Shown: positions 11,395 through 56,406 of the stretch, in pieces
Position numbering within the stretch: position 1 is the stretch's first letter
How the letters are laid out: each line of letters starts with the position of its first letter
Source of the DNA: Natrinema halophilum
GTDB lineage: Archaea > Halobacteriota > Halobacteria > Halobacteriales > Natrialbaceae
Direction of reading: 5' to 3'
Assembly (NCBI RefSeq): GCF_013402815.2
Contig: NZ_CP058601.1
Span: forward strand, 1,240,001-1,304,000
DNA length: 64,000 bases
Notes under the pieces: generated by a model
Told to the model about the DNA's origin: nothing
The model's input: only the letters and a program-made list of their open reading frames with translations
Databases searched by the model: none
Translations under genes and position numbers: made by a program

Positions 11395-12544
11395 CCTCCG
11401 CGTCCATCTCTTCTGCGGCCGTCCCTTCCGCGTCCATCTCTTCTGCGGCCGTCCCTTCCGCGTCCATCTCTTCTGCGGCCGTCCCTTCCGCGTCCGCCAT
11501 CCCCACTGACGACGGCGTAGATCCGCCCTCGTTCCGACCGCCCGACTCGAGTCCCGGTTCGGTATCGATCCCGAGTCGGACACAGATCATCTCGAGTCGG
11601 TCTCTGACGTCGGACATTCGGCCCTCCGGGACGAGCGAGAGTGCCCCGCCCATCGCGACGCCCTCTTTGGCCTCGCCGGCACAATAGCGCTCCATCGCGA
11701 CGTGATCTCGCTCGTCGAAACCGGGGTCCGTGACGGTGAGATCACAGTCGAATCGCTCGCAGGCATCCCACAGTCGATCGCCTTGCTCCGCCGCGACGAA
11801 CGAGGTAGTCGCGATCGAAAGCGCCGCGTCGATCCCGGCGTGGCGCACCAGTGCAGCGACCGCGATCATCTGCGTCCCACCGGCCAAAGTTACGTCGATA
11901 CCGGCCTCGAGCGCGCCGGCCGTAATTCCGGCGACGGTCGGCTGGACGGGATCACCGACGACACCGACCGCCTCGAGCGGTGCGCCCTCGCAATCGCCGG
12001 CCTCGAGATCGCTTGCGGTCAGGGCCTCGTCGACGACGCGTCGCTTGCGCTCGATCGGGTTCTCTGGAAGCGAGGAGGAGACACCGGTCGGTTCGCCGAG
12101 CGCGGTGAGGACGCCGAGTGCAGTGGTCGTACCGCCGGGGACCGTCTCGCCGATCAGGAGCTCGTCGTCTGGGAGGCTCGTGCCGTAGTCGTACGCGCGG
12201 TCGAAGGTGGCGTCCGCGTCGGGCACGGCAATCGGTTCTCGGACATCGTTGCCCGGCCGAACGTCGAGATCGACCGTCGGCGCAGCCGTCGGTCGGGCGA
12301 GTCCCGCATCGATCACTGTGAGGTTAAAGCCGACGACCTCCCAGACGGCGCGTGTCACCGCTGCAGGTGTCGGACACCCGCTGGGACTCACCGGAGTCAC
12401 CGGCGACGCGATCGGCTCGCCGTACTCGAGGATCTCGACGTCGGCCGAGGGAGTATGCGCCATCAGCTCCGGTGTGGCTCCGGCAGCGCTGATCCCATCG
12501 ATCAGGGCCGTTTCGGTCGTTCCGGCGGGGAGGAGGACTCGCAT
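11378..12544 (-). CDS. CobT-like nicotinate-nucleotide phosphoribosyltransferase (UPF0284)
   Basis: The 388-residue product belongs to the archaeal UPF0284/TIGR00303 family related to CobT, proposed to activate the lower-ligand base as an alpha-ribotide. It carries GGTQMIAVAALVRH, LLIGETVPGGTTTALGVLTA, VGDPVQPTVAGITAGAL and GEAKEGVAMGGALSL. It lies between cobY and cobD in the nucleotide-loop assembly operon, which supports the assignment. The C-terminus is unusual: after the fold ends, a tail of three EMDAEGTAAE repeats is encoded by three perfect 30-base copies that run into the start of cobD. The two-base gap to cobY indicates tight coupling. Confidence 0.85.
   Translation of the reverse strand: MRVLLPAGTTETALIDGISAAGATPELMAHTPSADVEILEYGEPIASPVTPVSPSGCPTPAAVTRAVWEVVGFNLTVIDAGLARPTAAPTVDLDVRPGNDVREPIAVPDADATFDRAYDYGTSLPDDELLIGETVPGGTTTALGVLTALGEPTGVSSSLPENPIERKRRVVDEALTASDLEAGDCEGAPLEAVGVVGDPVQPTVAGITAGALEAGIDVTLAGGTQMIAVAALVRHAGIDAALSIATTSFVAAEQGDRLWDACERFDCDLTVTDPGFDERDHVAMERYCAGEAKEGVAMGGALSLVPEGRMSDVRDRLEMICVRLGIDTEPGLESGGRNEGGSTPSSVGMADAEGTAAEEMDAEGTAAEEMDAEGTAAEEMDAEGDRGS
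11401..11490. repeat. Three perfect 30-base tandem repeats at the cobT-like/cobD junction
   Basis: Each unit starts CGTCCATCTCTTCTGCGGCC and ends CCCTTCCG. The repeat encodes the acidic 10-residue tail repeat of the CobT-like protein on the minus strand, immediately before the overlapping cobD start. The perfect identity of the copies indicates recent expansion. Confidence 0.95.
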
Positions 12545-30131: not shown

Positions 30132-30263
30132 CTTCCTCGAATCGTCACAGGCGGAGGGGGCGAACTTCCTCGAACCGTCACAGGCGGAGGGGGCGAACTT
30201 CCTCGAACCGTCACAGGCGGAGGGGGCGAACTTCCTCGAACCGTCTCAAGCGGAGGGGGCGAA
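30132..30263. repeat. Four tandem copies of a 33-base intergenic repeat
   Basis: Units start CTTCCTCGAACCGTCACAGG and end GAGGGGGCGAA; the first and fourth copies have one or two changes. The array lies 90 bases upstream of the thioredoxin start and 70 bases beyond the end of the next gene. It does not appear to be coding: the frames through it are antisense to their neighbours. Confidence 0.92.
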
Positions 30264-32241: not shown

Positions 32242-34164
32242 TTAGATCGCTTTCAGCGTCTCGTCGTCGGGTTCGTAGCACTGTCCGCCCATCAGTGCAT
32301 CCTGGATCGCGTCCTCGACCTCGTCGGTGGACGCTCCGGTGTCGGCGGCGACGGTTTCGATGACCTCACCTCGATCAGCGCCGCTTCCGTCGTCGAGTTC
32401 CGCCATGGTTTCGACGACGTAGCTCTCCAGATCGACGGCAGCCGGTTCATCGTCTCCCGGTTCGTCGTCAGTTTCAGTCCCGACATCGCCGTCGGTCTCA
32501 GTCCCAACATCGCCGTCGGTCTCAGTCCCGACATCGCCTGCTGGGTCGGCTTCGGCCGCGGAATCAGCGTCCTCGATAGACCCGGGCTTCTCGGCTTCGT
32601 CCTCGATCGGCTCCGACTCGTCTGGGCCGGTCGGCTCGTCGGCTTCTGCATTCACGGGTCCGGAGTCCGACGGTGCATCGAGGTCGTCGTTCACCGGTTC
32701 GTCCGAGTCGAACGCGTCGATGTCGGCTGCACCGGGATCGTCGACTTCGCTGCCTGTCGTGAACTCGGCACCGAACTCTTCCTCGAGTTGTTCGCGTTCC
32801 TCGTCGTCCATTTCGTACATTCCGTCGTCGGCGGCCCCGGCATCGAAGTCGCCGAGTTCGTCGCCGTCGTCAGCGCCATCGACAGCGATTTGTTCGTCGT
32901 CCGCGTCGGACGTGGACCCGACCTCGGGTTCAGGAATTTCCGAGTCCGCATCGGCCGAAACCGAGTCCGCAGTGATCGACTCCGGGTCCGCAGCGGTCGA
33001 CTCCGGGTCCGCATCGGTTGACTCCGGGTCCGCAGCGGTCGACTCCGGGTCCGCATCGGTTGACTCCGGGTCTGCAGCGGTCGACTCCGGGTCCGCATCG
33101 GCCGTCGGCGACCCCGGCTCGGGGTCGGAGCCCTCTGCGGGGGGCGTCTCGTCAACATCGGCCGTCGGTTCCGCAGCGGTTCCCTCGGCCGACCCTGTGC
33201 TGGGCTCGGTACTCGTGGGGTCGGTCACAGGGTCGGTATCGGCGGTCGTTGATCCGGACTCGCTGCTTGTAGCCGTGCCGGCAGCGGAACCGGAGTGTGC
33301 CTCCGCTGAAGCCGCTTGCGTGTCGCCGCTTGCCGTAGCCGCAACCGGTTCCGTCTCGGCTGCCCCCGATTCTGGGTCGACACTCGCCTCGAGTGCGGCG
33401 AGATCGACGTCGGTGAGGTCGGTGAGCGAGGCGACGGTCGCTTCGTGTTCCGGACTCGTATCGCCGGGTGAGACGTCGAATCCGTTTACCTGATCGCGCT
33501 GGCCGGCGACGACTTCGCACGCCTCGAGTGCACACGCGCGTAACGCTGCGAGGTACGACGGCGTCGTGGCGTAGTGATCCTGTGCGAGCGGAATCCCGGC
33601 CGCAAAACCGGGTTCCACACCGGCTTCGAGAAGAGCGTCGGTCAGGGCGTCGCCGCTCGCATCCGATTGAGCGGCCGCCGCGTAGGTACCGATGCGCTCG
33701 AGCGTCTGTTCGGCCGCGCTGACGACCCAGCGGTCGCGGGTGTCGGCGTCGACTGTGGCGATGCTCTCGGGCCGAATCGACGTGTAGACCCGATCCGAAT
33801 CCTCGGGCTGGAATGTTCTGGCTTTGCCCGTGACGGCGACGAATGCGGGCGGTTCGGCTTGCTCGAGGAAGGCCAGTTCGTCCGGCTGGTATTGGCCGGC
33901 GTAGACGACGAAGGCGCCAGTCGGATCGACGAGCCGAGCGCGGACCATTTCGTCGTTGACCGATGTGACTTCGGTGAGCGTGCCGACGGCAAAGACGCGA
34001 TTGAGCCGCGCACCGGTCGGCGAGATCACGTAGTTCGGAGCGCGTTCTTCGTCGCTTTCGGCGTACGATAGCGACGCGTCGTCGTATTCGGTCGCGAACA
34101 GTCTGTAGGCGATCTCTCGTCCGGGTATCTCCTCGTCGCTGTTTTCGTTTTCGTTTGCGCTCAT
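32242..34164 (-). CDS. RPA-associated protein with long acidic low-complexity linker
   Basis: The N-terminal 200 residues (REIAYRLFATEYDDASLSY, FAVGTLTEVTSVNDEMVRAR, FVVYAGQYQPDELAFLEQ) form an OB-fold domain of the archaeal RPA-associated protein family. The C-terminal 60 residues (LESYVVETMAELDDGSGADR, GEVIETVAADTGASTDEVE) form a winged-helix-like domain ending CYEPDDETLKAI. Between them is a linker of about 300 residues of Asp, Glu, Ser, Thr and Ala with tandem repeats. It overlaps rpa by four bases (ATGA), so the two subunits are co-translated. Length (640) is well above typical members because of the linker. Confidence 0.9.
   Translation of the reverse strand: MSANENENSDEEIPGREIAYRLFATEYDDASLSYAESDEERAPNYVISPTGARLNRVFAVGTLTEVTSVNDEMVRARLVDPTGAFVVYAGQYQPDELAFLEQAEPPAFVAVTGKARTFQPEDSDRVYTSIRPESIATVDADTRDRWVVSAAEQTLERIGTYAAAAQSDASGDALTDALLEAGVEPGFAAGIPLAQDHYATTPSYLAALRACALEACEVVAGQRDQVNGFDVSPGDTSPEHEATVASLTDLTDVDLAALEASVDPESGAAETEPVAATASGDTQAASAEAHSGSAAGTATSSESGSTTADTDPVTDPTSTEPSTGSAEGTAAEPTADVDETPPAEGSDPEPGSPTADADPESTAADPESTDADPESTAADPESTDADPESTAADPESITADSVSADADSEIPEPEVGSTSDADDEQIAVDGADDGDELGDFDAGAADDGMYEMDDEEREQLEEEFGAEFTTGSEVDDPGAADIDAFDSDEPVNDDLDAPSDSGPVNAEADEPTGPDESEPIEDEAEKPGSIEDADSAAEADPAGDVGTETDGDVGTETDGDVGTETDDEPGDDEPAAVDLESYVVETMAELDDGSGADRGEVIETVAADTGASTDEVEDAIQDALMGGQCYEPDDETLKAI
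32970..33100. repeat. Coding minisatellite in the RPA-associated protein linker
   Basis: Repeated GACTCCGGGTCCGC-type units alternating with GCAGCGGTC or GCATCGGTT encode alternating DPESTAA and DPESTDA. A second shorter repeat (CCGTCGGTCTCAGTCCC) at about 32490-32540 encodes GTETDGDV three times. Confidence 0.85.
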
Positions 34165-49937: not shown

Positions 49938-50609
49938 ATGGCCAGAAAATCGTATCAGGAGAAACTCACGGAGCTTCGTGAGAACGTTCTCTACATGAGC
50001 GAAGTCGTTATGGAACGACTTCGCATGGGGCTGGACGCCCTGGAGCAAAAAGACGTAGAACTCGCCCACGAAGTGATCGAGGGCGACGGCGAAATTAACC
50101 GGATGTACCTCGACTTGGAGCAGGACTGTATCGACCTACTCGCGCTTCAGCAACCGGTCGCGAGCGACCTGCGGTTCATCGCCGCCTCGTTCAAAATCAT
50201 CACCGACCTCGAGCGAATCGCGGATCTCGCGACTAATCTCGGCGAGTACACGATCGAGGCCGAACAGGACCTGTTCCCGGACGTCGACGTCCAGGAAATG
50301 GGCGACCTTACGCTCGATATGTTAGAGGACGCGATGGTCGCGTACGACGAGGAGGACACCGAACAATGTCGAAAGCTCGCGAACCGCGACGACGATCTCG
50401 ATGCGTTCGCCGAACGTGCCAGCGAGATCGTCGTCCGGGACCTCATCGAGCGCGAACTCGAAACGCCCGACGAGGTGGAACTGTTGCTCCAGGACGTCTC
50501 ACGGCTTCTGTTGACGATCCGCGACCTCGAGAGAGTCGGCGATCACACCGTCAACATCGCCGCGCGGACGCTGTATATGGTCGAAAACGACGACGAACTT
50601 ATTTACTAA
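49938..50609 (+). CDS. phoU: PhoU phosphate-signalling protein (stand-alone)
   Basis: The 223-residue product has both PhoU helical units: LQQPVASDLRFIAASFKIIT with DLERIADLATNLGEYTI, and DVSRLLLTIRDLERVGDHTV with NIAARTLYMVEN. It resembles the PhoU of the first operon at both ends (MARKSYQEKLTELRENVLYM). CTATATCTT at about 49908 lies some 28 bases before the ATG, so it has its own promoter. It is the third PhoU-domain protein in 14 kb and may pair with the second Pst operon, which has none attached. Confidence 0.94.
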   Translation: MARKSYQEKLTELRENVLYMSEVVMERLRMGLDALEQKDVELAHEVIEGDGEINRMYLDLEQDCIDLLALQQPVASDLRFIAASFKIITDLERIADLATNLGEYTIEAEQDLFPDVDVQEMGDLTLDMLEDAMVAYDEEDTEQCRKLANRDDDLDAFAERASEIVVRDLIERELETPDEVELLLQDVSRLLLTIRDLERVGDHTVNIAARTLYMVENDDELIY

Positions 50610-50652: not shown

Positions 50653-51285
50653 CTATTCGGTCGTGTTTCCGCCGGTCTCGTTCCCACCTGTCTCGTTCCC
50701 ACCTGTCTCGTTACCGCCGGTTTCGTTGCCGGTCTCGTTGCCGCCGGTTTCATTACCGGTCTCGTTGCCGCCGGTTTCATTGCCACCGCCACCACCACCG
50801 CCGCCCATTTGTATCTCGCCTTCCATCTGCGGGTGCGGTTGACAGCGGTAAACGGCCATATCGCTGCTGGCTGTGAAATCGAAGAACTGTCCGTCACCCG
50901 GGTCAGCGGACGCCTGGCCCGTCGTGAGTTCGTCGATGACTTCATCGTTCGAGTCACGGATTTGCATGTTGTGGGCGGAGCCGTCGCCTTCCGACCAACC
51001 GATGGTATAGTCTTCCCCTTCCTGTAAGACGAGCGTCGGGTTCTGTTCCCCTTCGATCGAGGACGGTGCGAGACCTTCCCAGTAGCTGGTCTGACCACTG
51101 AAGTCGATTTGCGTTCCGGGGTCGATTTCGACGCCGCCACCGCCACCACCGCCGTTACCGCCACCGTTGCCGCCGCCACCGTTGCCGCCGCCGCCACCAC
51201 CGCAACCGGCGACGAACGCAGTCGAAGTCGCGACACCTGTCAGTTTGAGCATCCGCCGTCGGGATAGCTTCTCGTCTCGTGCCAT
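50653..51285 (-). CDS. Halocyanin-like blue copper lipoprotein with Gly-rich linkers and sequon tail
   Basis: The 210-residue product has a TAT signal (SRRRMLKLTGVATSTAFVAG then lipobox Cys), a Gly/Asn linker, and a cupredoxin domain. The type 1 copper ligands are His in GSAHNMQI and Cys, His and Met in YRCQPHPQM. It would carry electrons at the outer membrane face. The C-terminal tail of about 45 residues is built of NETGG and NETG units, giving nine N-x-T sequons in a row, so heavy N-glycosylation is plausible. ATG at 51285 is preferred to the GTG at 51288. Confidence 0.92.
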   Translation of the reverse strand: MARDEKLSRRRMLKLTGVATSTAFVAGCGGGGGGNGGGGNGGGNGGGGGGGVEIDPGTQIDFSGQTSYWEGLAPSSIEGEQNPTLVLQEGEDYTIGWSEGDGSAHNMQIRDSNDEVIDELTTGQASADPGDGQFFDFTASSDMAVYRCQPHPQMEGEIQMGGGGGGGGNETGGNETGNETGGNETGNETGGNETGGNETGGNETGGNTTE

Positions 51286-51447
51286 CACGATGACTTTGTG
51301 CTCACCGGGAATAGACGAATACCCGTCAGCTGCGTGGGAATCAAATACGGGCGGATTTGTAGCAGTTAGAACACCGATTCTCCGTTATCCAGCGTCTCGG
51401 CTCTGCGCCACAGCCTAACTGTCAAAACTCCGCCATAATCGGGCTGC

Positions 51448-51879
51448 TTATTGCAACGGTCGCGACCCGGACTCGCGTTCGGGGATGCGAGTCAGTAGTT
51501 GCGTCGTATCGACGATGTTTCTCGTCTCGAGTAACACCTCCGCCGCTTCTCGGACCGTGAAGTCCGCCTCGAGTTCGACGCCGTGACAGTGTGCATAACA
51601 CTCGAACCAGCGGTTCATCGCGTCCTCTAGCGCATCGAGTTCGGGTTCGCTGAACGGAACCAATCGACCGCCGGTTCGAGCCTCGATGTAGAGCCAGATT
51701 GCCTGTCCTGCGCCGTCACGCAGGTACTCGTCGGCGTCGTCAGGATCGGGATCGTGATCGAGATCGGGATCGGTACAGAATGTCGTCCCTTCGGCTGAAT
51801 CGTCGGCGCTGTCGAGCGCCGCTCGTTCTCGTTCGGCTCGGCGGGAGAGCGCGGCGATTCGGGGACCGTAGCGGCTCAC
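51448..51879 (-). CDS. Conserved haloarchaeal protein downstream of the ETF operon
   Basis: The 143-residue product has a helical N-terminus (GPRIAALSRRAERERAALD), an acidic linker of Asp-Pro repeats (DPDLDHDPDPDDADEY) and a helical core (FSEPELDALEDAMNRWFECY, VREAAEVLLETRNIVDTTQL). The GTG at 51879 starts one base after the fixC-X stop, so it is the last gene of that operon. The longer frame upstream overlaps fixC-X and is not used. No function known. Confidence 0.7.
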   Translation of the reverse strand: MSRYGPRIAALSRRAERERAALDSADDSAEGTTFCTDPDLDHDPDPDDADEYLRDGAGQAIWLYIEARTGGRLVPFSEPELDALEDAMNRWFECYAHCHGVELEADFTVREAAEVLLETRNIVDTTQLLTRIPERESGSRPLQ

Positions 51880-51880
51880 G

Positions 51881-53563
51881 TTATCCCTCGCGGTACTCGA
51901 TGCCCTTGCCGCCGCGGGGGTGTTCCCACTCGGTGTCTGCCACGATGGCGCACGTGCCACATTCGACGCACGGCTGGGTGTCGAGGCTGACTAGCGTTTC
52001 CTCAGAGCCGTTGGTCTTGACCGTCTCCGAGCGGTAACAGCCGCCGCCGAAGTCCTCCGCGCTAACCGGACAGGCAGCGACAGCCGCGCCGCTCGCCCCG
52101 TAAGAATCGTCTCTGAGCTCGATGTGTGGATTGCCCACGTCGGTGTCGTAGGTCAGGTCGCCGATGCGTTGCTCGAGGGACGGCGGTTCGATCTCGTTGT
52201 CCCATTGGATCGTTCTGCCGTGTTCCTCTGCGATCAGCGTCGGAAGAGAGACGTAGCCAGTCTTTGTGTCGGGCAACATCGACACCAGGAACGGCGAGTT
52301 ATACGCACGCTTTAGCAGTCGATTCGCGATCGGATTGCCGACCGCGACCGAGCCGATCGGCGAGTCGAGTACCCGTTCGACGGCCGCGGTTACGGTATCG
52401 TTTTCGCCGACGGTCCGGCTCAGATCGTAGCGCCGGGGCCGAAGCTTGTCCATCGTCCCCGAGTCCTCGAGCATCTGCGTGTATCGCTGGCCGGCGGCTC
52501 CAGGATCGGCACTTCCACGGGTGACAGCGAATGCGTCGGCCGCAAGCGCGCCAGCGGTGACGGCGTGGTTCATCCCCTTGATGATCGGACCCTGCGCTTG
52601 CATCTGACCGGCGGCGTCACCGACGAGAACGAGTCGGTCTCGATGTGGCTCGCGGTGGGCGACCTTCTTCGAGTCGGGAACGAGCTTCGCTGCGTACTCG
52701 CGCTCGTGGTACTCGTTTTTGAACCAGCCCGCGAGCAAGGGGTGGGTCAACAAGGCGTCGAGTAGTTCGTGGGGGTTGGCTTCCTGCTCAACGAGGCTAT
52801 CGAGGTGGAACACGGTTCCGATCGACAGTGAGTCCTCGTTCGTGTAGAGGAAGCCACCGCCGCGGACGTCCTCGAAGAGGTCACCCGAGAACAGGTGTGC
52901 AGCTCCTTCGTCGGAATCGATGTCGAACCGGTCATTGATGACGTCGGGATCCATGTCCACGACCGCCTTGACGCCCTGGAACCACTCGTCGGGTTCCTCC
53001 CAGTCCATCAGGCCGGCATCGCGGGCAAGTTCCGAATTGACGCCGTCAGCACCGACGATCAGATCCGCTTTGATCGGATCGAGTTCGTCACAGGTGACCC
53101 CGACGATCTCGCCGTTTTCCCTGAGGAGACCGTTCACCCGAACGTTCGTCAGTACGCCGCCGCCAGTCTCGCTGGTCTTTTCGTGGACGCGTCGCTCGAG
53201 CCAGGAGTCCATTTCGCGGCGGAGAACGGCGTCGCACCAGTCGGTATCGTGTTCGTGGAGATCGACGAGATCGTAGGTCTTCACCGAATTACCGGCCACG
53301 TTGTGGATGTGGTAATCCGTGACCGGCCGTTCCGCGGCCTCATCCCGAAAGCCCTCGAAGAGGTCGTCGATCGTGTAGGGAGCGGAGTCCTCGGCGTATA
53401 TCAGCCCGCCGGAGACGTTCTTCGAACCCGCTTCGGTACCCCGCTCGAGGACGAGCGTTTCGACGCCGTGGTCTGCCAGCCGCGCCGCCGCCGCGGCCCC
53501 GCCGGGTCCACAGCCCACGACGACCGCCTCGTAGTGTTCGTAGTCGTCGGTTTCGGCCGCCAT
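51881..53563 (-). CDS. fixC: FixC-FixX fusion: electron-transfer-flavoprotein quinone oxidoreductase
   Basis: The 560-residue product is a FAD-dependent FixC-type oxidoreductase (AVVVGCGPGGAAAAARLADH near residues 13-32, GGLIYAEDSAPY, DLIVGADGVNSELARDAG, LVLVGDAAGQMQAQGPIIKG) fused to a FixX-like ferredoxin at the C-terminus (AACPVSAEDFGGGCYR, CVECGTCAIVADTEWEHPRG). It would take electrons from the FixAB flavoprotein and pass them to quinone or a bifurcation acceptor. The ferredoxin part has fewer cysteines than a standard 4Fe-4S FixX: the CxxCxxC at the end is clear, and the fourth ligand is probably in ACPV. ATG at 53563 overlaps fixB by one base. Confidence 0.92.
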   Translation of the reverse strand: MAAETDDYEHYEAVVVGCGPGGAAAAARLADHGVETLVLERGTEAGSKNVSGGLIYAEDSAPYTIDDLFEGFRDEAAERPVTDYHIHNVAGNSVKTYDLVDLHEHDTDWCDAVLRREMDSWLERRVHEKTSETGGGVLTNVRVNGLLRENGEIVGVTCDELDPIKADLIVGADGVNSELARDAGLMDWEEPDEWFQGVKAVVDMDPDVINDRFDIDSDEGAAHLFSGDLFEDVRGGGFLYTNEDSLSIGTVFHLDSLVEQEANPHELLDALLTHPLLAGWFKNEYHEREYAAKLVPDSKKVAHREPHRDRLVLVGDAAGQMQAQGPIIKGMNHAVTAGALAADAFAVTRGSADPGAAGQRYTQMLEDSGTMDKLRPRRYDLSRTVGENDTVTAAVERVLDSPIGSVAVGNPIANRLLKRAYNSPFLVSMLPDTKTGYVSLPTLIAEEHGRTIQWDNEIEPPSLEQRIGDLTYDTDVGNPHIELRDDSYGASGAAVAACPVSAEDFGGGCYRSETVKTNGSEETLVSLDTQPCVECGTCAIVADTEWEHPRGGKGIEYREG

Positions 53564-55128
53564 CACTCGTCACCCCCGTCAGCGACGGCCTCGGGCTCGA
53601 TCGTCATCCCGCCCGATTCGATGGCTTCGGTGAGCCGAGGCAACACCTCGAAGAGGTCGCCTTCGATGAAGTAGTCGCTGAAGTCCCGGATACGGGCGTC
53701 GGTGTCTGTGTTGATTGCGACGATGGTGTCCGACTCGTCCATTCCGACCTTGTGTTGAACCGCGCCGGAGACGCCCGCCGCAATGTATAGATCGGGCGCC
53801 ACGACCTGGCCGGTCTCGCCGATCTGACGCTCTTCTTTCGAATACTGCTCGACGTGGCCCTCGAACTGGTAGGAGGAGGTGACGATCCCACGTGTGATGC
53901 CGAGTTCGGCGTCCTCGAAGGCATCGACGAGATCGAGGCCCAGTTCCATCCCGCGAGTAGGGTCGTCAGCGATCCCGCGGCCGAGACAGATGATCACGTC
54001 GTGGTCGGTGAGGTCGATGCCGGCCTCGAGTTGATCGTATTCGGTTATTTCGACGCGGAACCAGTCGTCTTCGAGATCCATATCGTGTTCCACAACCAGT
54101 CCCTCACGGCCGTGGTCGGGCTCCATCGGCTCGAAGCTGCCCGGAATGACCGAACAGCCTTGCGGGTGGAACTCCCGTCCGGGGTTGTCGAGACAGAGGA
54201 TCGTCGAATATTCGAACCCGGAAAAATCGGGACGCTTCATGTGCAGGACCTTCTCGAACGTCTTTTTCACGCCCGGTTCGCCGGTCTTGACCGGGTTCGA
54301 GACCTCGTTTTCTTCGATAAAGAGGTCGGAACAGTCCGAGGCCAGTCCAGAGTCGAGTTCTGCCTGAACCTTCGCTGAGAGATCCCGCCCGTTGTTCGTC
54401 GCTGGAAACAGGACGTAACGGGGCTTATCGTAGTCGCGCCAGTCAGTGCTCTCGATTGTTCCCTCACCGCGGGCCATATGCGACGCGATTTCAGTATACG
54501 GTTTGTGCAGGAACCGTTCCAATCTGTCGTCGTCGTGGTACACTGCGATGTCCGCTCCGTAGGCGATACACTCCTCCGCCAGCTCCTCGCAGTCGTCGCC
54601 CATCAGGAATGCGACGACGTCTTCTTCGTCCCCGTAGTCCGCTTCGAACTCGTCCATCAACTCGCGAGCTTTCCCGAGCATCTCCCGTGACACCTCGAGC
54701 AACTCGCCGTTCTGGGTCTCGCAGAAGACCCACATGTCCGCGTAGTCGCCGTCAGCGAGCGCTCGGACGTGTCTCTTGTCGCGGGTCGGGTGGGAGAGGC
54801 CGTCGTCTTCGTCCGGTTCGGCTTCCTCGTCGGCGCCCCCGTCGTCGGCGTCCGTCTCTGGTTCGTCGATCTCCTCCTCCCCTGCTTCGTCACCGACGTC
54901 TTCGGCCGTCTCCTCGTACTCGCCTTCCGTTTCCGTTCCGTCCTCGACCCCTTCGAGGTCGGCACCGATCTCCTCGAGTCGGGTTCGAACAGCCTCCAGG
55001 GCGGTCGTCCGATCCTGACCGGACCGTTCGGCCTCGAGAATCGCCTGCAGTTCGTTCGCGTCGTCGATCGTTTCGAGTTCTTCGGTCAGTTCGTCAACGG
55101 TGTGGTCGTCGGGATCTACTGTCGTCAT
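53563..55128 (-). CDS. fixB: Electron transfer flavoprotein alpha subunit (FixB/EtfA) with acidic N-terminal extension
   Basis: Residues from about 120 form EtfA (DYADMWVFCETQNGELLEVS), with the FAD-binding C-terminus CLGRGIADDPTRGMELGLDL, GITRGIVTSSYQFEGHVEQY, QIGETGQVVAPDLYIAAGVS and GAVQHKVGMDESDTIVAINT. The first 55 residues are a predicted helical domain (TVDELTEELETIDDANELQA, ERSGQDRTTALEAVRTRLEE), and 56-115 are almost pure Asp/Glu. The protein is 521 residues against about 320 for a usual EtfA. ATG at 55128, one base after the fixA stop. Confidence 0.93.
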   Translation of the reverse strand: MTTVDPDDHTVDELTEELETIDDANELQAILEAERSGQDRTTALEAVRTRLEEIGADLEGVEDGTETEGEYEETAEDVGDEAGEEEIDEPETDADDGGADEEAEPDEDDGLSHPTRDKRHVRALADGDYADMWVFCETQNGELLEVSREMLGKARELMDEFEADYGDEEDVVAFLMGDDCEELAEECIAYGADIAVYHDDDRLERFLHKPYTEIASHMARGEGTIESTDWRDYDKPRYVLFPATNNGRDLSAKVQAELDSGLASDCSDLFIEENEVSNPVKTGEPGVKKTFEKVLHMKRPDFSGFEYSTILCLDNPGREFHPQGCSVIPGSFEPMEPDHGREGLVVEHDMDLEDDWFRVEITEYDQLEAGIDLTDHDVIICLGRGIADDPTRGMELGLDLVDAFEDAELGITRGIVTSSYQFEGHVEQYSKEERQIGETGQVVAPDLYIAAGVSGAVQHKVGMDESDTIVAINTDTDARIRDFSDYFIEGDLFEVLPRLTEAIESGGMTIEPEAVADGGDE

Positions 55129-55129
55129 T

Positions 55130-55993
55130 TCAATCACTCACCTCCACAGCATAGGGTTGCATCTCCTCGAGTACTTCTCCCATCCCGTCGTCGGGATCGA
55201 TCATCGTCGCTTCTCGTTCGGACGGGGCTTTGGGAATCGGATCGACCGACGAGACGATCGTGGGCGAGCCGTCGAGCCCAATATAATCCGGATCGAGGTT
55301 CAAGTCGACGTGGTCCCACGTCGTCAGGTGCTCGTCGTGTTCTTCGGCTCGCTCTTCCGTTTCGGCCCTGAGCCGCTTGTGTGTCAGCCGGTGTGAGGCC
55401 TTCCGATACGTCGGCTCGAACTCGGGATCGGTGACGACGAAGCAAGGCAAGGAAGCTTCGACCGTCTCGATTTCGTCGACGTCTCCCTCCACGAGGCGTT
55501 TCGCGCGCAGCATCCGCTCGTCGGGATCGATCTCGAGCGCGATGACGTGAGTGACTATCGGCCAATCCATCGCCCAGCAGGTCTGCGGGCCGGTCTGGCC
55601 AGTTTCTCCGTCAGCCGTTTTGAACCCAGCGAACACGATGTCGACGTCGGCCACTTCCTCCTGATACTTCTCGAGGCCGGCGCTGAGTGTGATCGCCGTC
55701 GCCCACGTGTCCGAGGCGGCCAGTTCTCTGTCCGAGAGCAGGTAGCTATCGTCGGCATAAACTGACTTCATCGCACCTTCCAAGACGTCCGCGTACCCCG
55801 GTGGACCCATACTCATCCCGCTGACGTGGCCGCCGTGGCGGATTTTCGTCTGCAGCGCGGCCTCCAGCGCGAACGCGTCGTTCGGGTTCATGACTGTCGG
55901 CGTTTTCCCCCGTTCTAAGTGTCCGTCCTCGTCGAACGAGACGGCCCCCTCCGAAAAGTCGGGGACGCCTTTCGTTAGAACGATTGATCGCAT
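55130..55993 (-). CDS. fixA: Electron transfer flavoprotein beta subunit (FixA/EtfB)
   Basis: The 287-residue product has the EtfB landmarks: SIVLTKGVPDFSEGAVSFDE, NPNDAFALEAALQTKI, VSGMSMGPPGYADVLEGAMK, YLLSDRELAASDTWATA and FAGFKTADGETGQTGPQTCW. The last phrase includes the nucleotide-binding loop. With FixB it accepts electrons from acyl-CoA or other dehydrogenases. ATG at 55993 begins MRSIVLTKG; a TTAAAT element near 56025 is the likely promoter. First gene of fixA-fixB-fixCX and the small tail gene. Confidence 0.94.
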   Translation of the reverse strand: MRSIVLTKGVPDFSEGAVSFDEDGHLERGKTPTVMNPNDAFALEAALQTKIRHGGHVSGMSMGPPGYADVLEGAMKSVYADDSYLLSDRELAASDTWATAITLSAGLEKYQEEVADVDIVFAGFKTADGETGQTGPQTCWAMDWPIVTHVIALEIDPDERMLRAKRLVEGDVDEIETVEASLPCFVVTDPEFEPTYRKASHRLTHKRLRAETEERAEEHDEHLTTWDHVDLNLDPDYIGLDGSPTIVSSVDPIPKAPSEREATMIDPDDGMGEVLEEMQPYAVEVSD

Positions 55994-56406
55994 GAATCTC
56001 TCCGTCGAAGAACCGAGGTTACATTTAACATGGCTGTGTTTCTCTAACGTAATTATCACTATTAAGAATACGGGTTAGAATCGCCGTCAGAAGCGGGGGA
56101 TGCAGTGATCGCTACCCGCGAACCGCCCGGAACTTCGCGTCGATGCGAACGGCGTACGCGCTCGAACCATAACCACCACTGTCCGGTGCTTCGCGCTTGT
56201 GCCCTGTATGTGCGGTGTTTTATCACGTCAGTCACGACCGTCGTCATACGCGGATCGTGATCGTTTATCCGAGACGATGTGAGGTCGTCTCAGAACCCGA
56301 GTCCACACGCCTGCTCGAGCGGGCGCCACTCGCCGTCGGCTCGGGATGTCGACGAATACGCGACGCTCTCGTGCCCGTCGACGGCGAGGGCGACCCGGAA
56401 CGTCCG
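55994..56406. other. Intergenic region between fixA and the bactofilin-like gene
   Basis: About 410 bases. The left end has the fixA promoter (AT-rich, 56000-56085). The rest carries only shadow frames; nothing else recognised. Confidence 0.5.

Follow-up and report, generated by a model that had tools for sequence, protein, structure and literature searches.

A halocyanin-type copper protein of Halobacteria whose C-terminal sequon array is a probable acceptor for dense N-glycosylation

Taken together, our analyses suggest that a halocyanin-like gene in a 64-kb stretch of haloarchaeal DNA (the window, G000:C1:1240001-1304000 of a 4.84-Mb genome with Natrinema/Haloterrigena as its closest named relatives) probably encodes a Tat-exported, lipid-anchored cupredoxin with a disordered distal tail, or brush, that is N-glycosylated after translocation. 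The initial annotation had described nine consecutive N-x-T sequons at the end of this protein, and translation of 50653-51285(-) confirms them: the C-terminus reads QMGGGGGGGGNETGGNETGNETGGNETGNETGGNETGGNETGGNETGGNTTE followed by the stop, the part after Gly8 being NETGGNETGNETGGNETGNETGGNETGGNETGGNETGGNTTE, which places nine sequons (8 NET, 1 NTT) 4 or 5 residues apart in the last 41-42 residues (Table 1). The most likely translation start is the ATG at 51285, with homologue N-termini that read M(M)ARD or MTRD as evidence. In all six frames of the window we found no second cluster like it: the one other stretch with at least 4 sequons per 45 residues has just 4 and looks like an Arg/Ser-rich ORF in a wrong frame. 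Further tandem repeats occur in the window at 32939-33101 (21-bp x 7.8), 30132-30263 (33-bp x 4) and 11397-11495 (30-bp x 3.3).

Table 1. Features of the halocyanin-like gene and its neighbours, in positions of the window
Feature	Position	Strand	Details
Halocyanin-like copper lipoprotein gene	50653..51285	-	210 aa from ATG; GTG at 51288 would give 211 aa
Tat signal SRRRMLKL and lipobox FVAGC	51202..51285	-	From sequence; predicted lipidated Cys is Cys28
Gly/Asn-rich tether	51133..51201	-	No sequons (NGG/NGN); pLDDT <50
Cupredoxin domain, residues 52-161	50803..51132	-	Ligands His105, Cys148, His151, Met154; no sequon
Gly8 hinge ahead of array	50782..50805	-	From translation
Sequon array (NETGG/NETG)x8 + NTTE	50656..50781	-	Nine N-x-T sites; predicted disordered; stop 50653-50655
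phoU	49938..50609	+	Convergent neighbour, marks syntenic locus; PF01895, 4e-42
Hypothetical 170-aa ORF	51448..51960	-	Between fixCX and halocyanin; kept in syntenic loci
fixCX 51881-53566, etfA 53563-55137, etfB 55130-56059	51881..56059	-	Co-oriented electron-transfer-flavoprotein genes; Pfam; synteny conserved

That the gene encodes an exported copper protein, as also claimed initially, is supported. The four type-1 Cu ligands (His105, Cys148, His151 and Met154) are invariant in 42 sequences, and the AlphaFold model has a nine-strand cupredoxin core (residues 51-160, pLDDT ~97) whose best PDB matches in Foldseek were the cupredoxin domain of CuNIR (nitrite reductase), rusticyanin, plastocyanin and auracyanin; the tail of the model has pLDDT <50. 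A profile of the core likewise led to cupredoxins in the PDB. The Pfam family Copper-bind (PF00127) matched the window protein at 18.2-20.3 bits, against a gathering cut-off of 21.2, and 30/42 relatives at E<=0.01, while an NCBIfam search returned nothing useful. PDB matches to scFv and fusion constructs, obtained with the single sequence, were set aside as low-complexity noise driven by the Gly-rich linker. At the N-terminus both the Tat motif and the lipobox of halocyanins are present, with R9, R10, G27 and C28 nearly invariant in 42 homologues, and lipidation of Cys28 is predicted. The best reading of sequence and model is a halocyanin-type one-electron carrier, with copper binding and electron shuttling as predicted functions. 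Halocyanins are presumed to carry single electrons to terminal oxidases in haloarchaea (PMC8305020), and the lipid anchor of the Natronomonas pharaonis halocyanin is supported by MS (PMC2945643). That protein, NP_3954A, and the haloarchaeal hcp proteins are likewise archaeal lipid-anchored blue copper proteins and presumed one-electron carriers, but these papers describe no halocyanin with a sequon tail (PMC8305020, PMC2945643), and it is the free C-terminal nine-sequon array that the window protein adds.

Arrays of this kind recur well beyond the window. A DNA pattern for three N-x-T five residues apart, searched in 125 genomes of the family, gave 413 matches in 79/125 genomes and in 28/29 genomes of the genus, a count in which matches overlap inside arrays and some lie in wrong frames. 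In the same genomes the reversed pattern gave 3 matches, N-x-A 9 and D-x-T 183, the last fewer than N-x-T even though nine genes of the window contain 3.3 times as much Asp as Asn. Among 30 arrays that we read closely, ~23 belong by eye to proteins with a signal peptide, lipobox, Tat motif, membrane segment or known surface domain, and none to an evident cytosolic protein; matches L087, L088, L096, L098, L101 and L102 were discounted as Arg/Pro-rich wrong frames. The class is also found in several other families of the order, there mixed with plain DNA repeats (AACGT, AACCC). Carriers include a HiPIP (PF01355, 27.9 bits), a Ferritin_2 protein, DUF7282 proteins and AglB. The HiPIP-type iron-sulphur lipoproteins L104 and L105 (PF01355 for L104) end in C-terminal NETDG arrays and are a second kind of electron carrier so tailed, and arrays are also carried by the halocyanin-PQQ dehydrogenase fusions L099, L100 and L103 (identified by similarity to L005). 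The genome of the window itself has arrays on two halocyanins, two halocyanin-PQQ dehydrogenase fusions, an adjacent PQQ dehydrogenase-like protein, AglB and others, those of the fusions and their neighbour (L005, L007, L110; G000:C1 about 739-743 kb and 1158-1162 kb) lying in loops and tails. One array stands alone: L084:1354-1635 (+) encodes a Tat lipoprotein that, once mature, would consist of nothing but nine sequons and an acidic stretch. An msrA-like reading frame comes next, and we saw no hint of a frameshift between them.

From these sequences the array is not a one-off but a recurrent module on predicted exported haloarchaeal proteins, notably redox ones. A wider proposal, that Halobacteria own a modular N-linked mucin-like domain, we hold to be evenly balanced. 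Its sequons would be densely packed, with one N-x-S/T every 4-6 residues, and selected for nothing but their role as AglB acceptors. Such arrays would sit in the tails, linkers and loops of surface proteins, above all of redox carriers outside the cytoplasm (halocyanin, HiPIP, PQQ-halocyanin dehydrogenases), on AglB itself, and even alone as a lipid-anchored glycan carrier; if this is true, the archaeal pseudoperiplasm gains a glycan brush. We also noted L135 (G000:C1:2331811-2331980, minus), an N-terminal membrane segment with an almost pure sequon array and a few decayed units (IET, YET), as well as the secreted proteins L075, L082, L090, L091 and L093, which have 24-45 sequons and NxTIENATIE-like repeats; of these five L082 was scanned against Pfam, where no family matched. 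The D-x-T control pattern found a D-S-T-D-T repeat array in the window's genome (G000:C1:1464518-1464600, +).

At its own locus the tail persists. The order etfA-fixCX-hypothetical-halocyanin-phoU is found in twelve intact syntenic relatives, and 12/12 are tailed, with 4-9 sequons. The copper-domain tree scatters these syntenic genes over several clades, and on the core tree tail state changes 7 times by parsimony, at least 5 of the changes being forced. We dropped repeated gain and loss of the tail as the full account of this tree, since synteny and the mosaic gene L036 of N. mahii indicate that core replacement explains part of it. The signal region of L036 is identical at 57/60 nt to that of L021, a syntenic relative, whereas its core is identical at up to 54/54 nt to L037, a tailless halocyanin paralogue in the same genome, and a sequon tail follows. 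Gene conversion from the tailless paralogue appears to have replaced the core of L036 and left its tail in place, which suggests that the tail is tied to a job at the etf-fixCX locus, or at least that it survived core replacement. An apparent tailless syntenic copy in N. thermotolerans (L051/L052) was rejected, as the L052 sequence contains an N as well as a duplication and, read in another frame, shows a tail with seven sequons adjoining phoU; we treated this locus as an assembly problem and left it out of the counts.

A tail that stays with the etf-fixCX locus, and arrays concentrated on electron-transfer partners (halocyanins, PQQ-halocyanin fusions, the neighbouring PQQ dehydrogenase, HiPIP), could also speak for a glycan tail that is no passive brush but a recognition or retention tag, through which the carrier docks on the S-layer, on exopolysaccharide or on partner oxidoreductases. 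However, we identified no receptor or lectin domain, and unrelated proteins such as AglB and the Ferritin_2 and DUF7282 proteins carry arrays as well, so that we consider a tag unlikely.

Evidence for a glycan acceptor comes from relatives, for which the initial annotation had proposed asking what is conserved in the tail, the sequon or the letters themselves. It is the sequon. Among 60 loci read, 23 have tails of at least 2 sequons, which with the window protein and its paralogue L002 gives 25 tailed proteins with a median of 7 sequons (range 2-10) at a spacing of 4, 5 or 6. In these 25 proteins 163/171 tail Asn lie inside sequons, while the x residue (E134, Q9, A7, T6, M4, then G, L and D), the spacers and the copy number vary widely between tails. 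Relatives' tails read NETADNETSGNETAGNETSGNETNGNESDGNESGNESGNETSE in N. pallidum, NETDGNETDGNESMSNETAENESMGNETEGNETDDNESE in N. mahii, NASEDNASEDNASEDNATEDNATEGDNATEGDNAS in Natronococcus jeotgali and (NETGNQTGG)n in N. salsiterrestre, and arrays as unlike in appearance as NETGG (window), NETDGNESMSNETAE (L036) and NASED/NATEGD (L039) belong to one family; long Gly runs likewise occur in relatives (L009, L011, L028, L030, L040, L002). The residue at +2 of tail Asn is T in 130 cases, S in 33, G in 5 and N in 3, and Ala never, so the single-step ACN to GCN transition does not appear in true tails. Moreover, Ser at +2 is encoded by 18 TCN and 15 AGY codons, which means that it arose by more than one route. 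At most 1/3 of single-base changes in ACC give Ser, and seven independent changes, an assumed number of events, would all give Ser with p ~5e-4. In a set that still held three unrelated tails, Asn lies in sequons at 155/172 tail positions vs 4/127 in the N-linkers of the same proteins, and vs 34.6 (max 53) after within-tail shuffling, counts and shuffles that take no account of relatedness. The sequon-free Gly/Asn tether of the window protein is an internal negative control for its tail. Sequons are scarcer in the core than in its shuffles (8 vs 31), but this is no more than suggestive, since the Asn there are mostly at conserved positions (NP, HN). Combined, these sequence data point to an array that is not due to chance and to a tail selected for the sequon rather than as a random repeat. 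Many halocyanin paralogues are tailless, and the tail is therefore not needed for halocyanin function in general.

A simple-sequence repeat born of replication slippage and left unglycosylated, with sequons as by-products of repeated codons, would account for the degenerate tandem repeat in the array DNA (12/15/27-bp), for a copy number of 2-10 sequons and for the Gly/Asn simple-sequence linkers of the same proteins. Yet the units differ synonymously (AAC/AAT, GAA/GAG, ACC/ACA/ACG), at x and in the spacers, with N kept and S/T never turned into Ala. Together with the two codon routes to Ser, the ~46-fold rarity of N-x-A arrays relative to N-x-T across the family and the tail retained where the core was replaced (L036), this makes slippage quite improbable. 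It is also very unlikely, in our estimate, that the tail serves in high salt through its acidic, hydrophilic and disordered nature, as a solubility or entropic tail, with Glu and Gly the residues that count and the sequon a coincidence. Glu does occupy x in 134/163 sequons, and two distant halocyanin relatives, L059 and L061, carry acidic Asp/Glu tails with zero sequons, possibly an alternative anionic tail. But Glu gives way to Q, T, A, M, L or G at its position while N and S/T stay fixed, and L012 and L002 alternate NET with NQT/NMT/NTT. Relatives with Gly/Glu/Thr tails lacking sequons, which would have told against a conserved sequon, were not seen in the sample; L059 and L061 are instead of the Asp/Glu kind.

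Under the preferred reading, that of an N-glycosylated tail, this halocyanin would have a tail of a new kind, N-linked and mucin-like on an archaeal electron carrier, its glycans being predicted. Mucins carry many O-linked glycans on tandem acceptor sites in disordered sequence, and engineered Gly-spaced glycosylation tags are man-made repeats of acceptor sites, whereas the window tail is natural and, by its motif, N-linked, with predicted glycans. Plant phytocyanins and chimeric arabinogalactan proteins (uclacyanin, stellacyanin, ENODL) share with it a cupredoxin joined to a densely glycosylated low-complexity region (predicted glycans here) and membrane anchoring at the surface (PMC3184959). 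Their glycomodules, however, are O-linked and Pro/Hyp-rich and their GPI anchor is C-terminal, while the window protein has N-x-T sequons, an N-terminal lipid and an archaeal host, and its array contains no Pro and no C-terminal hydrophobic signal; it may work like these proteins but is not a member of their class. In Archaea the respiratory cytochrome b558/566 of Sulfolobus acidocaldarius also has N-glycans, and the 'remarkably high' density of the C-terminal domain of the S. acidocaldarius S-layer is one site per 30-40 residues (PMC2948927), compared with one per 4-5 in the disordered window tail. In Haloferax volcanii, HVO_2160 (19 sites) and the Tat-lipobox protein HVO_1624 illustrate AglB-dependent N-glycosylation of exported proteins including Tat lipoproteins, but the main text of that glycoproteome paper neither reports a copper protein with tandem sequons in its tail nor names a halocyanin (PMC8241124). 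Our searches of an open-access library turned up no account of archaeal copper proteins with tails of this kind. Archaeal N-glycosylation has so far been described at scattered sites of S-layers, pili and archaella, and an array in which the sequon is the only conserved feature gives direct access to how AglB acts after export, also on folded proteins exported by Tat, and to the question why electron carriers at the surface would bear sugars. Provided that they are occupied, the arrays would be the N-linked equivalent, found in nature, of mucins and of the arabinogalactan copper proteins of plants, and could serve as they stand to report OST occupancy in Archaea at many sites at once, and with tailed and tailless paralogues in one genome their function is testable.

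As for the arrangement at the cell surface, the initial annotation had offered a stalk or a brush, and since the lipid is N-terminal whereas the array forms the free C-terminal end, only a distal tail or brush, the latter a plausible name, fits the window protein. A glycosylated stalk holding the copper domain at a set height over the membrane would suit the Halovivax-type halocyanins L033 and L095, whose arrays lie not at the C-terminus but in the N-terminal membrane-proximal linker between lipobox and domain, and L089, with an array before a PGF-CTERM-like anchor, but is highly improbable here, where the folded domain separates array from anchor and the Gly/Asn linker that joins anchor to domain has no sequons. 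Under the brush reading, a halocyanin-type carrier would be exported via Tat, lipid-anchored by Cys28 to the outer membrane face and tethered there by the flexible Gly/Asn linker. Tat substrates cross the membrane folded, so a flexible tail would be an obvious place for later OST action. After export the disordered tail would thus be a multi-site acceptor for AglB, which may add N-glycans to many of the nine close-set sequons, although Glu in the x position is considered unfavourable for OST of eukaryotes. The free end would then bear a dense, hydrated, probably anionic glycan brush directed away from the anchor, which may keep the carrier soluble, protease-resistant and unaggregated in the brine between membrane and S-layer. 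In human OST, sequons in the last 50 residues form a post-translocational class, and those 4-5 residues apart within this region can be skipped (PMC4750078), which suggests that occupancy of the tail may be partial. In Hfx. volcanii the exported proteins that AglB glycosylates include Tat and Tat-lipobox proteins, and AglB is one of its own substrates (PMC8241124). The window protein has the features of an AglB substrate, being a predicted exported protein with N-x-S/T sequons in a genome that encodes the AglB/STT3 oligosaccharyltransferase, present once, and a glycan on it is accordingly a prediction from sequence. This AglB (L069/L073; G000:C1:1742644-1742696, minus) carries a C-terminal NETGG array of its own, PPNNETGGNETGGNETGGNETDG..., and the AglB of a relative (L086) is likewise array-bearing.
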